Below are positions 57,277-61,404 of a stretch of 64,000 nt of DNA, in pieces. Position numbers and translations under genes: made by a program. The stretch lies in NCBI GenBank assembly GCA_902589395.1, contig CACIST010000001.1, positions 1-64,000 of the forward strand. The letters are read 5' to 3'. Under the pieces are notes generated by a model. It did no database searches. It was not told where the DNA came from and saw only the letters and a program-made list of their open reading frames with translations. Source of the DNA: an uncultured Pelagibacteraceae bacterium (lineage in GTDB: Bacteria > Pseudomonadota > Alphaproteobacteria > Pelagibacterales > Pelagibacteraceae). Each line of letters starts with the position of its first letter. The first letter of the stretch is position 1.

Positions 57277-57819
57277 TTATTTTTTCTGTTCTTGATTTTC
57301 TTTCGGTTCTTCTGTTTTTACAGGCTCTGCTTTAACTTCTTCTTTAGGAGCTTCTGCTTTAACTTCTTCTTTAGGAGCTTCTGTTTGAGGATCAGTTGAT
57401 GGCATTACGTTTTCCTCAGTAACTTCATTAATTTTAGTTTCTAAATCAATACCAATAGTCTTCTTAATTTTTTCAGCTATTCTTGCGGATTTACCAGTTC
57501 TATCTCTTAGATAGTATAATTTTGCTCTTCTTACTTTTCCTGATCTTACAACTTTTATTGTATCTACAATTGGGCTGTATAATGCAAAAGTTCTTTCTAC
57601 TCCCTCACCAAAAGAAATTTTTCTAACAGTAAATGATGAATTGATGTCTCTACTCTTTTTTGCGATACATACACCTTCAAAATATTGAATTCTGTCTCTT
57701 TTACCCTCTGTTATCCTAACTCCAACTTTAACGATATCTCCAGGGAAAAAATCAGGATGTTTTCTCTCAGAAATAATCTTGTTTAAATTTGATCTGTTTA
57801 TTTCTTCAATATTTTTCAT
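57277..57819 (-). CDS. rplS: 50S ribosomal protein L19 with repeated acidic-basic tail
   Basis: 180 residues. Residues 1-~120 are normal L19 ([52 protein letters not shown]). The last ~45 residues are extra, with EAPKEEVKA twice (147-155, 156-164) and a Lys/Glu/Gln end. The same type of tail is on S16 two genes upstream. L19 sits at the 30S-50S bridge. It follows trmD by one base. Confidence 0.96.
57328..57381 (-). repeat. Two tandem 27-base units in the rplS tail
   Basis: They encode EAPKEEVKA twice. The DNA words match those in the rpsP tail (shared plus-strand word TTCTTTAGGAGCTTCTG with small changes), in the same orientation about 1.2 kb away across trmD. Confidence 0.75.
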
Positions 57820-57820
57820 T

Positions 57821-58504
57821 TCAATTTTTCTTATATTTTTGCCATAAGTCTGGTCTTCGGTCGCGTGTTATAGCCTCAGATTGGGATAAACGCCAGTCTT
57901 TAATTTTGGCGTGATCACCTGAAATCAGCACATTTGGGACCTTTTTTTCCTCCCAAACTTGAGGTTTTGTGAATTGCGGATATTCAAGAAGGCCATTCTC
58001 AAAACTCTCATCTCTTGAGGAATTAATATTACCTAGAATTCCTGGAATAAATCTTAGAATAGAATCTGTTACAACAAATGCAGCAACTTCACCCCCTGAT
58101 AATACAAAGTCACCAATGCTAATCTCTTCAATATCCCTACTTTCTAGTATTCTTTCATCTACTCCTTCGAAATGACCACAAATTAAATTGATTGTTTTTT
58201 CATTTGAAAACTCTCTTGCAAGTTTAGAATTAAAAACTTTTCCTCTTGGACTTAAATAAAGGGTTTTTTCTTTAGTCTTGATATTTGCGTCTAATGAATT
58301 TGCCAAAACATCTGCTTTCATAATCATTCCATTTCCGCCACCATAAGGAGTGTCGTCAACAGTTTTATGTTTATCTAATGCATAATCTCTTATGTTTACT
58401 GTTTCTAAATCCCATTCTTTTCCTTTTGACTTTCCAAAAAGACCTTTACTCAAATAGCCTGGAAAATATTCAGGATACAACGTAAATACTCTAGACAAAA
58501 ACAT
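57821..58504 (-). CDS. trmD: tRNA (guanine-N1)-methyltransferase
   Basis: 227 residues from the ATG at 58504, which begins the family sequence [18 protein letters not shown]. An open frame continues 103 codons upstream, but that part is only the rpsP repeat read in another frame. Motifs present are [29 protein letters not shown] and the trefoil-knot SAM site [20 protein letters not shown]. It methylates G37 of tRNAs and so guards the reading frame. It starts 5 bases after rpsP; rimM is missing between them. Confidence 0.95.
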
Positions 58505-58508
58505 TATT

Positions 58509-59048
58509 CTATTTAGCTTCTTCCTTCGGAGCTTCTGTTTTAGCTTCTTCCTTCGGAGCTTCTGTTTTAGCTTCTTCCTTAGGAGCTTCTGTTTTAGCTT
58601 CCTCTTTTGGAGCTTCTGCTTTTGGCTCTTCTGTTTTAGCTTCTTCCTTTGGAGCTTCTGCTTTTGGCTCTTCTGTTTTAGCTTCATCCTTTGGTGCTTC
58701 TGTTTTAGGAGCATCTGTTTTAGCTTCGCCACCCTCATCAGTTTTCTTTCTATCTTTTTTTGGAATTGCTTTTTGAGGATTATTACCTTTTGCTGGCATA
58801 GGCATAATCTCATTTTCTCCTAATAATCTTGCAACTCTAGTTGTTGGTTGTGCCCCTTGACCCAGCCAATACTTAACTCTCTCAACATCTAATCCCATTC
58901 TTTCTTTTTTTTCTTTTGGAATTAGAGGATTAAAAAAACCTAGTTTTTCTATAAACCTTCCATCTCTTGGAAATCTACTATCAGCAACCACTATCTTATA
59001 TACTGGTCTCTTCTTAGTTCCTCCCATTGATAAACGCATCTTTAACAT
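58509..59048 (-). CDS. rpsP: 30S ribosomal protein S16 with a ~95-residue repeated tail
   Basis: 179 residues, about twice the usual ~80-90. Residues 1-84 are S16 ([47 protein letters not shown]). From ~85 on the chain is Lys/Glu/Ala/Pro-rich: two 14-residue units (123-150) and three 9-residue AKTEAPKEE units (151-177). The tail has no hydrophobic residues and should be disordered. It follows ffh by 12 bases. Confidence 0.96.
58518..58682 (-). repeat. Tandem repeats in the rpsP tail (3 x 27 bases and 2 x 42 bases)
   Basis: 58518-58598 holds three near-identical 27-base units (AKTEAPKEE). 58599-58682 holds two 42-base units ([14 protein letters not shown]). The unit length is a multiple of three throughout, so copy-number change keeps the frame. 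Confidence 0.85.
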
Positions 59049-59060
59049 TTGTTCTCCTAT

Positions 59061-60419
59061 TTATTTTAATTGATTAAAAAGTTCTGGTGGTATGCCTTTA
59101 TCCATCATCCCTTTTGTATTTCCTTTAGACATTTTTTTCATCATTTCTGACATCATCTTAAATTGCTTAAGCAATTTATTGATAGTGGCTACGTCTGTTC
59201 CTGAGCCATTAGCAATTCTTTTTTTTCTAGAACCATCTATAATCTTAGGGTTTTCACGCTCTTTTTTAGTCATAGATAATATTACCGCCTCGTTTTGAGT
59301 AATTATTTTTTCATCCACACCAGCTTGATCCATTTGAGATTTAACTTTTGAAACACCAGGCAAAAAAGACATTATGCCTTCAATACCACCCATTTTTTTC
59401 ATTTGTCTTAGCTGAGTAAGGTAATCCTCTAACGAGAACTGACCTTTTTTTAATTTTTCCTCTGTTTTTTTTAATTTTTCTTCATCTAGATCTTCTGCAG
59501 CCTTTTCAACGAGGGAAACAATATCTCCCATACCTAAAATTCTATTAGCAATTCTGTCTGGGTGAAAAACTTCAAAATTTTCTATCTTTTCACCAACTCC
59601 TAAAAATTTAATTGGAACATCTGCAACATATTTCATACTTAATGCTGCTCCACCTCTTCCATCACCATCTGATCTTGTAAGAATAATACCTGTCAGATTA
59701 ACAGTACTTTTAAATTCTTTAGCTATATTAGCTGCTACTTGGCCAGTCAAAGAATCTGCGACAAGAATTGTTTCTGACGGATTTATAATACTTTCAATTT
59801 GTTTAATCTCACTCATCATTTGTAAATCAATCTGAGTTCTTCCGGCTGTATCAAATAGAATTACATCTGCTCCATTAAGATTAGCAGCACTAATCGCTCT
59901 TCTACAAATATCTGCAGGAAGTTGATCTTTGATGACTGGAAGTGTTATTATATTATTTTGCTCACCCAAAAGTCTTAGTTGCTCTTGTGCAGCAGGTCTG
60001 TAAACGTCTAGACTAGCCATCATAACTTTTTTCTTTTTGTTAGTCTCTAAAAATCTTGCTAACTTAGCTGTAGTTGTAGTTTTTCCAGAACCCTGTAACC
60101 CAACTAACATAACTGGAACAGGAGGTACTGCATTTAATTCAATATCAGAATTTTTATCCCCTAAGAAAGAAATTAACTCATCGTTAACAACTTTAACTAC
60201 CATCTGTCCTGGTGAAGTAGACCTAATGATCTCTTGACCAAGAGCTTTGGGTTTCACTCTATTTATAAATTCTTTTACAACTTCTAAAGATACATCCGCT
60301 TCTAAAAGAGCAAGCCTAATCTCTCTTAAACCCTCATCTACTTGCTTTTCATCAAGCGAAGGCGCCTTTTTTAAAGAAGAAAATATTTCTTCAAATTTAT
60401 TTGTTAAATTTTCAAACAT
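59061..60419 (-). CDS. ffh: Signal recognition particle protein Ffh
   Basis: 452 residues from the ATG at 60419 (MFENLTNKFEEIFSSLKK); an in-frame ATG 24 bases upstream lies at the edge of a hairpin and is unlikely. The NG domain has Walker A GLQGSGKTT (107-115), DVYRPAAQEQL, DTAGRTQIDLQMM and TRSDGDGRGGAALSM. The methionine-rich M domain follows after ~300 (MKKMGGIEGIMSFLPG, GSGTDVATINKLLKQF). It targets membrane proteins with 4.5S RNA and FtsY; ftsY lies 1 kb away on the other strand. Confidence 0.97.
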   Translation of the reverse strand: MFENLTNKFEEIFSSLKKAPSLDEKQVDEGLREIRLALLEADVSLEVVKEFINRVKPKALGQEIIRSTSPGQMVVKVVNDELISFLGDKNSDIELNAVPPVPVMLVGLQGSGKTTTTAKLARFLETNKKKKVMMASLDVYRPAAQEQLRLLGEQNNIITLPVIKDQLPADICRRAISAANLNGADVILFDTAGRTQIDLQMMSEIKQIESIINPSETILVADSLTGQVAANIAKEFKSTVNLTGIILTRSDGDGRGGAALSMKYVADVPIKFLGVGEKIENFEVFHPDRIANRILGMGDIVSLVEKAAEDLDEEKLKKTEEKLKKGQFSLEDYLTQLRQMKKMGGIEGIMSFLPGVSKVKSQMDQAGVDEKIITQNEAVILSMTKKERENPKIIDGSRKKRIANGSGTDVATINKLLKQFKMMSEMMKKMSKGNTKGMMDKGIPPELFNQLK

Positions 60420-60436
60420 AATCACATCCAGCAAGT

Positions 60437-60517
60437 ATCGCACCAGTGGGCGAACTCTCGCTGACTGGTGTCGATCTCTTTGTTACCAAAGACACCGCAA
60501 ATTGCTATATTTTGCGG
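60437..60517 (-). ncRNA. Three-hairpin structured leader upstream of ffh (possible cis-regulatory RNA)
   Basis: Three hairpins lie in 81 bases of unusually GC-rich sequence. A (60437-60475) has an 11-bp stem with one bulged T, a mismatch, a further short stem and an ACTC loop. B (60477-60492) has a 6-bp stem with a 4-base loop. C (60495-60517) has a 7-bp stem CCGCAAA/TTTGCGG with a 9-base loop. A minus-strand promoter at 60530-60555 would start transcription near 60522, just before C. All three would thus lie in the ffh 5' leader, ending 18 bases before its start codon. It lacks the GGAA-loop and AGCAGCC features of SRP RNA. Function unknown. Confidence 0.55.
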
Positions 60518-60527
60518 AAACGGCGAT

Positions 60528-60555
60528 AAACTATAATAGAGGTTCAAAATGTCAA
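60528..60555. promoter_or_regulatory. Overlapping divergent promoters of ffh (-) and dapF (+)
   Basis: On the minus strand there is a perfect TTGACA (60555 to 60550), with TATAGT (14-base spacer) or TAGTTT (16-base spacer) as -10. On the plus strand there is a perfect TATAAT -10 (60532-60537) with a weak -35 (TTTTGC, 60510-60515). The two -10 boxes share the bases ACTATAAT, so the two promoters should compete for polymerase. Confidence 0.5.
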
Positions 60556-60579
60556 TAAATAAGTTAAATACTGAAGTAT

Positions 60580-61404
60580 ATGGAATTTAAAGCTTTTAAA
60601 ATGGATGGTCTTGGAAATGATTTTGTAATTATTGATAATAGGTCAAATAATATGGAATTAAACAAGGATCAAATTATTAAAATTTGTGATCGAAACTTTA
60701 TTGGTTGTGACCAACTAGTCTATATTAACAACAGTGATAATGCTGATGCTGATCTAGAATTTTATAATTCTGATGGTTCGACAGCTGACGCATGTGGAAA
60801 TGGTACAAGATGTGTGGCCTTCTTATTATCAAAAGAAAAAAATACAAAAAATATAAGCGTTCAAGTAGCATCAAAACAGTTGAATTCAAAATTACTTGAT
60901 GATGGTCAAGTTGAAACAATAATTGGTGTGCCAAAAACTAATTGGAAAGAAATTCCTTTATCTCAAAAACTAGACACTAAAAATTTAGGACTAATCATAG
61001 AAGATAACAATAGCCAAGAAGTGAGTGGCGGTATAGCTATTAACGTAGGTAATCCTCATACTATTTTTTTTGTTAATGATGTAGAAAATTTCAATTTAGA
61101 AAAAATTGGACCTGAGATCGAAAATCATGAATTTTTTCCAGAAAAATGTAATTTCACTCTTGCGCAAAAATTAAATAAAAATCATTATAAAATTAAAGTT
61201 TGGGAAAGAGGCGCAGGTTTAACAAAAGCATGTGGAACTGCTGCGTGTGCAACAGCAGTGGCTGCAAATTTAGAAAAGTTAGAAAATTCTAGAACTGAAA
61301 TTGAATTCGCTTTAGGAAAATTAGTAATTTCTATTGATGAAAGTCAACAAATTCATATGAAAGGACCTGTATCTAGTATCAAAGAAATAGATATAAATAT
61401 ATAA
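60580..61404 (+). CDS. dapF: Diaminopimelate epimerase
   Basis: 274 residues, two-fold beta barrel. The two catalytic cysteines are C72 in STADACGNGTRCVA and C218 in TKACGTAACATAVA. MDGLGNDFVIIDNR is the N-terminal signature. It converts LL- to meso-diaminopimelate for lysine and the cell wall. The stop overlaps the ftsY start (TAATG). The dapF-ftsY pairing is common in alphaproteobacteria, often with a MiaB-like gene between, absent here. Confidence 0.97.
   Translation: MEFKAFKMDGLGNDFVIIDNRSNNMELNKDQIIKICDRNFIGCDQLVYINNSDNADADLEFYNSDGSTADACGNGTRCVAFLLSKEKNTKNISVQVASKQLNSKLLDDGQVETIIGVPKTNWKEIPLSQKLDTKNLGLIIEDNNSQEVSGGIAINVGNPHTIFFVNDVENFNLEKIGPEIENHEFFPEKCNFTLAQKLNKNHYKIKVWERGAGLTKACGTAACATAVAANLEKLENSRTEIEFALGKLVISIDESQQIHMKGPVSSIKEIDINI

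Follow-up and report, generated by a model that had tools for sequence, protein, structure and literature searches.

The window, the whole stretch of 64,000 nucleotides that was analyzed, contains a compact structured element between two divergent sets of genes. On the minus strand the open reading frame of ffh (signal recognition particle (SRP) protein; 59061-60419, with the SRP54 domain PF00448 at 59532-60113) would be the first gene of the transcript. It is followed by rpsP (ribosomal protein S16; 58509-59048), named from its homologues, and then by trmD and rplS (57277-57819), named from homologues or by reading of their translations. On the plus strand dapF (60580-61404) diverges, followed by an ftsY-like gene with an SRP54 domain. 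The RpsP and RplS proteins of the window both have repetitive C-terminal tails rich in Lys, Glu and Pro, with EAPKEE-type repeats.

The element is already catalogued. The Rfam covariance model RF01793, named "ffh", matches the minus strand at 60433-60485 with a score of 58.7 bits (cut-off 35, E = 1.3e-8), and is the sole Rfam match above its curated cut-off within the window. Its location upstream of ffh, the ATG of which is at 60419, fits the definition of RF01793; that is not so in one family of genomes discussed below. RF01793 is the "ffh motif" of Meyer et al. 2009 (PMC2704228), and the statement in the first-pass annotation that no ffh leader of this shape was known to it is superseded by that description. 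In that paper the motif is described as one bulged hairpin on the basis of Candidatus Pelagibacter ubique and metagenomic sequences, is found in Rhodobacterales, Sphingomonadales and Rhizobiales, and is suggested to regulate ffh with no mechanism given; metatranscriptomes reporting it as a small RNA are cited. Assignment of the window to SAR11 is based on the first-pass annotation and on a genome of the same genus (G026), in which the match at 260205-260256 falls in the interval given there for Pelagibacter ubique HTCC1062. The element described here shares with the published one a bulged hairpin with two conserved cytosines, located before ffh both in SAR11 and elsewhere in the alphaproteobacteria. 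The main text of Meyer et al. 2009 contains none of the words rpsP, S16 and L19, and a search of the literature with most subscription journals outside its scope found no functional study of RF01793.

Folding of the minus strand at 60437-60522 gives −33.8 kcal/mol. Dinucleotide shuffles give −18.5 ± 2.8 kcal/mol, and none of the 200 folds as well (z = −5.5). The three hairpins proposed in the first-pass annotation are present where it had placed them. The local rise in GC content that it noted is also real (0.44 in 60400-60499, compared with 0.33 in 60300-60399 and 0.26 in 60500-60599), and the bracketed structure ends at 60437, close to the ffh start as it had said. Taken singly, the core within 60437-60471 and the middle hairpin within 60473-60495 fold with z = −3.94 and −3.31 respectively (1/200 shuffles as good in each case), and the outer AT-rich hairpin within 60493-60522 is the weakest of the three, with z only −1.88 (9/200). 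A longer piece of the minus strand, 60410-60525, folds more weakly (z = −2.51, 5/200). The small SRP RNA (RF00169) was considered as an identity for the element, but is absent from the four model matches up to E = 5 at 60380-60600. That RNA is the functional partner of Ffh, and the match in this genome lies elsewhere, at 597-692 of contig C9.

The plus strand folds more stably than the minus strand, with z = −7.35, so fold stability alone would have picked the wrong strand. Wobble pairs assign the functional RNA to the minus strand. Among 72 distinct cores there are 27 G.U cells in the ffh sense compared with two A.C cells, the latter being G.U on the other strand, although the loci had been found with a minus-strand model that possibly favors this outcome. 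The same ratio bears on the idea that the element acts for the divergent dapF-ftsY transcript, as its leader or as a promoter element. Such a role would accord with the stable plus-strand fold, with a weak plus-strand promoter-like match at 60483-60511, and with the divergent position of dapF in the window and in family f51 (below). Yet dapF was recognized in only 103 of the 158 RF01793 loci that we fetched, and together with the 27:2 ratio this leads us to give a dapF-ftsY element hardly any weight.

Compensatory changes were examined in an alignment (A1) of 32 sequences chosen by hand from the 158 loci. The conserved core, hairpin C (60441-60470), comprises 7 bp, a C.C mismatch with an A.C position, a further 4 bp and a four-nucleotide loop. 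It is the bulged hairpin of RF01793; nine of its 11 pairs are changed on both sides, and 100% of cells are paired. Hairpin B in its extended form (60472-60497) has a CGGU:AUCG base, one mismatch and a UCUUUG:CAAAGA stem, with a stable inner part at 60492-60477. Six of eight pairs are changed on both sides and 92.2% of cells are paired, and this hairpin is not a helix in the Rfam model. When B and C are taken together 15/19 pairs are changed on both sides and 96.7% of cells are paired. None of 500 shuffles reaches either value, and slid controls pair at 35-42%. Hairpin A (60495-60517; 7 bp, CCGCAAA:UUUGCGG) has four of seven pairs changed on both sides, with 86.2% of cells paired. Among the 65 distinct elements from SAR11, changes on both sides are present in two pairs of the core and four of B; 41 of the 65, including that of the window, have a G.G mismatch at pair B5. 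The RNA that is conserved thus reaches beyond the Rfam model, with B covarying strongly directly 5' of the core, which extends the 2009 description as far as its accessible text goes. Hairpin A covaries in SAR11 and some other lineages. The stems thus carry compensatory changes across relatives and in the ffh sense, which upholds the suggestion of a cis-acting leader at the front of the ffh mRNA.

In the internal loop of the core the C.C mismatch is present in 69 of 72 distinct cores, and the neighboring position is A.C in 46, A.A in seven, a standard pair (C-G, G.U or U-A) in 14 and something else in five. The loop is better described as a conserved C.C mismatch adjoining an A.C position. The 11-bp bulged stem initially drawn for this hairpin is correct in its 7-bp stem and inner 4 bp, which are conserved, but not in the outer 4 bp, AUCG:CGAU. 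The four outer pairs are unpaired in 1, 11, 19 and 20 of the 65 distinct SAR11 elements, and in 5 to 13 of 32 sequences of the wider alignment with one compensatory cell. We therefore reject this extension as a conserved helix; its AUCG strand covaries with the upstream CGGU instead. A closing helix (P0), in which a 5' UUCC would pair with a GGAA-like tail and hide the ribosome site, is not general either, many near relatives of the window being without it. The mean pairing score of 10.14 for P0, compared with 9.53 for permuted tails (0/1000 as high), comes from 57 distinct SAR11 pairs and is inflated by their relatedness.

The hairpins differ in how widely they occur. With 100 mononucleotide shuffles each, hairpin B folds at p ≤ 0.05 in nearly all distinct upstream stretches from SAR11 (63 of 64) but in only 23 of 66 from elsewhere, where short tetraloop stems score low in this test. 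At one locus (L102) the promoter abuts the core and neither hairpin A nor B is recognizable, suggesting that the core is the indispensable part.

Hairpins A and B compete for the same nucleotides. The CGG at 60497-60495 ends the 3' arm of hairpin A and also forms the 5' side of the base of extended hairpin B, and the two pairings are mutually exclusive. We examined the three alignment positions involved (15, 36 and 63), leaving out rows that failed simple anchors. Among the 69 distinct SAR11 rows that remain these positions read G-C-G in 59, A-U-A in eight and G-U-G in one; the last row (L027) is mis-registered and reads A-U-A by eye. These counts are of sequence rows and not of independent events on a tree. 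Since both partners of the C change together, neither pairing alone accounts for the SAR11 pattern. Such double covariation suggests a conformational switch. The pattern is less clean in the 15 rows from outside SAR11, with eight G-C-G, two A-U-A that have a poor hairpin A, and five others.

A conserved promoter precedes the element, as had been proposed from the sequence of the window alone. Its −35 box is TTGACA (60555-60550 on the minus strand), and the probable −10 box, placed from its TA position with upstream regions side by side, is TAGTTT (60533-60528) with a 16-nt spacer. TTGAC is found in 141/141 distinct upstream stretches compared with 401/2820 random stretches of the same length, and a TA lies 15-19 nt after the −35 hexamer in 137 of the 141, by a loose criterion. 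Among named loci found through rpsP, TTGAC is present in 49 of the 74 whose model hit has an E of at most 0.05, compared with 256/3700 random stretches. TAGTTT matches only three of six consensus bases, and the TTGACA/TAGTTT promoter is absent from the output of a generic sigma-70 scan. On this basis transcription is predicted to start near 60522-60520, just before hairpin A. In several loci without TTGAC (L207, L209, L254, L263 and similar) the leader has a tRNA-like sequence, ending GGCTCCACCA, a short way upstream. Beyond the core there is a conserved 3' tail, CGATACTTGCTGG (60428-60440), with position-specific conservation in SAR11 and other sets. From its spacing to the ATG, the last bases of this tail may overlap the ribosome-binding site in SAR11.

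A promoter of its own raises the possibility that the element is an independent, trans-acting small RNA that merely lies beside ffh, and short RNAs have been reported. In addition to the metatranscriptomes cited in 2009, a study of Mesorhizobium huakuii lists a copy of RF01793 as MH_s5 in the intergenic region IGR_Pb-19, which may be on a plasmid, and gives for it a further set of coordinates spanning 441 nt, which we take to be the RNA-seq transcript (PMC5596092); an "ffH leader RNA" is likewise reported for Bartonella bacilliformis. Outside SAR11 a T-rich stretch also follows the core. Against these points, ffh or rpsP is the next gene in all 155 readable loci, each matching genome has one match among those listed, and a simple scan for intrinsic terminators or attenuators found no terminator-like site in 60300-60700, a weak result given that 0.4 would be expected by chance. 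A free-standing small RNA, which had been offered initially as the second option, is therefore quite improbable. The same reports, and the conservation of TTGAC in 141/141, would also be explained by a promoter-proximal 5' UTR that confers stability on the transcript, or is cleaved to a stable 5' fragment, with no specific ligand. However, the C.C mismatch, the conserved tail and the double covariation exceed what a plain stabilizing hairpin should need. The leader may serve only as such a 5' stability element, which we consider unlikely.

With strict filters RF01793 matches 131 of 147 genomes of the same order as the window and 75 of 289 of the class, leaving 16 and 214 respectively without a match; among order genomes of at least 90% completeness 7/105 have none. 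In the 158 loci the next gene downstream is ffh in 152 and rpsP in three, and a contig edge intervenes in three. A count of rpsP made in the class sample, rather than in each SAR11 locus, finds it in 68 of the 72 motif genomes. In 66 of the 68 it lies downstream on the contig and strand of the motif, at 53 nt to 5.1 kb (median 1.6 kb), and in the other two it is on another contig, the motif lying no more than 150 nt from where a contig ends. In G308, G177 and G405 rpsP is 3.4-5.1 kb downstream, and it is doubtful that these three genomes make a shared transcript.

We also searched from the rpsP side, using a covariance model (R1) with B and C paired. Of 80 named rpsP loci, where rpsP is constant by construction because they were found through it, 72 have a hit at E ≤ 0.01, in every case on the strand of rpsP. 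Restricting these to the 76 with at least 2.5 kb upstream gives 71 matches, with no hit at E ≤ 0.01 in L204, L205, L242, L259 and L265. Extrapolation of the ffh start places it −5 to 427 nt beyond the hit in 68 of the 72 matching loci, and the other four are loci of the f51 type without ffh. Within the 58 named motif loci that have 6 kb downstream, rimM is present in 54, trmD in 51 and rplS in 44, so these are less constant partners of the motif. In the window there is no room for rimM between rpsP and trmD (57821-59048), although rimM follows rpsP in those 54 of the 58.

Family f51 comprises 18 small-genome alphaproteobacteria and is the only family of its order in the sample. Examples are G204, G328, G423, G442, G448 and G456, and its loci include L267, L062 and L167-L179. 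Close matches to rpsP of its members are named "PS1 clade", "OCS116 cluster" and "Hyphomicrobiales bacterium AH-657-K06", which we take to be marine organisms. The motif is present in 14 of the 18 genomes, and in 14/14 it is directly followed by rpsP, at a distance of 26-33 nt from the Rfam match. dapF is divergent in 13 of these 14 loci; the contig of the remaining one (L173) begins too close. In G204 the order, with names by reading, is motif-rpsP-rimM-trmD-rplS-leuC. RpsP of the f51 genome in L083 has a low-complexity tail, as in the window.

No SRP component was found in f51. An ffh profile and the SRP54 domain shared by Ffh and FtsY each gave 0/18 genomes over the cut-off, with single fragments of 17 and 20.5 bits respectively in G444. 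A search with the Ffh sequence of the window matched none of the six f51 genomes of at least 90% completeness, compared with both of two controls. In that search a second Ffh-like match (G437, C25:19050-19889; 33% identity, probably FtsY) contains one in-frame TAA. The SRP RNA model also gave 0/18, but this absence is weaker than those of the proteins because the model missed four of 21 genomes of the window's own order, one of them 92% complete. SecY is present in 14/18, including all six of the most complete genomes. The family has apparently lost the whole SRP pathway, which if true in an SecY-bearing family would be notable in its own right. In an alignment (A2) of 11 distinct sequences out of 14 from this family, two being duplicates and one (L179) having failed the pattern, the outer stems go on varying compensatorily and the mismatch has C on both sides in 11/11, although inner B pairs 6 and 7 form in only 7/11.

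These observations bear on the proposal that the element is a feedback leader for Ffh, in which free Ffh, or a lack of SRP RNA, would be sensed and translation of ffh adjusted. This would accord with ffh being the next gene in 152 of 158 loci, and control of SRP protein synthesis was the role originally proposed for the element in the window. The 5' GUCAG of the core also resembles the 5' strand of SRP RNA helix 8. But the second loop position is variable among the 72 cores, being A.C in just 46, which makes a fixed mimic of the SRP RNA loop unlikely, and we find the idea of such a mimic in the core unsupported. Meyer et al. 2009 (PMC2704228) considered feedback by Ffh possible and likewise saw no resemblance to SRP RNA. 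Moreover the element with its covarying stems persists before rpsP in 14 f51 genomes in which the searches recovered no Ffh, FtsY or SRP RNA, so that an SRP-specific role is hard to maintain. The element seems to require Ffh neither as target nor as ligand, and control of ffh is probably not its whole function. Because ffh and rpsP occur together at nearly every other locus, the case against Ffh rests on one lineage, in which the leader could be kept for its promoter or for mRNA stability alone. We regard feedback by Ffh as distinctly unlikely.

Our preferred reading, to which we give about an even chance, is that the element is the 5' leader of an ffh-rpsP-trmD-rplS transcript and regulates its ribosomal protein genes in cis, with S16 (RpsP) as the most likely ligand in a feedback loop. 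The single transcript, the feedback, the ligand and the switching are all inferred. S16 is favored because rpsP is the one downstream gene in every resolved context checked, and because of the principle, set out by Eckert and Weinberg 2020 (PMC7247131), that a regulated gene encodes the ligand. That paper describes a Flavobacteria leader that is also located before rpsP, for which its authors inferred feedback by S16. It belongs to another lineage, the likeness to our element considered here is one of context, and in our loci ffh mostly lies between leader and rpsP; the word ffh is absent from its text.

On this S16 reading the conserved promoter would start a leader RNA just before hairpin A. 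The RNA would have up to three hairpins, with C constant, B widespread, and A able to pair with the base of B in a mutually exclusive manner. A protein product of the operon, most likely S16, would bind the leader and lower expression, either through rearrangement of A and B or by blocking the ribosome site 21 nt beyond the core. Given that the core lies 21-42 nt before the ffh start in SAR11, a bound protein could hinder ribosome loading there. Outside SAR11 the separation is 17-292 nt, and up to 427 nt in named loci, which does not fit one simple mechanism of ribosome blocking; with distances that reach 292 nt or beyond, A/B rearrangement may count for more, as may an effect at the level of transcription. 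A bolder proposal, which we hold tentatively and at somewhat less than even probability, is that the "ffh motif" is misnamed and is a two-state RNA switch for the alphaproteobacterial rpsP (S16) operon, sensing S16 or ribosome assembly; bacteria that had lost Ffh, FtsY and 4.5S RNA would then have retained it immediately ahead of rpsP.

Compared with the one-hairpin model of 2009, as given in its accessible text, what is added here is the fuller structure with hairpins A and B, the alternative pairing, and the occurrence before rpsP in genomes where no ffh was found, the last being unlike the description of RF01793. A lineage that keeps the RNA, apparently without its presumed partner, turns a vague idea of SRP control into a decidable choice, and the f51 context points to joint control of ribosomal protein and SRP genes in alphaproteobacteria. 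At one locus (L040, 1469-1819) an open frame of 116 codons from its first ATG, which bears cysteines in its 3' part, overlaps both the element and the 336 nt that separate it from ffh.
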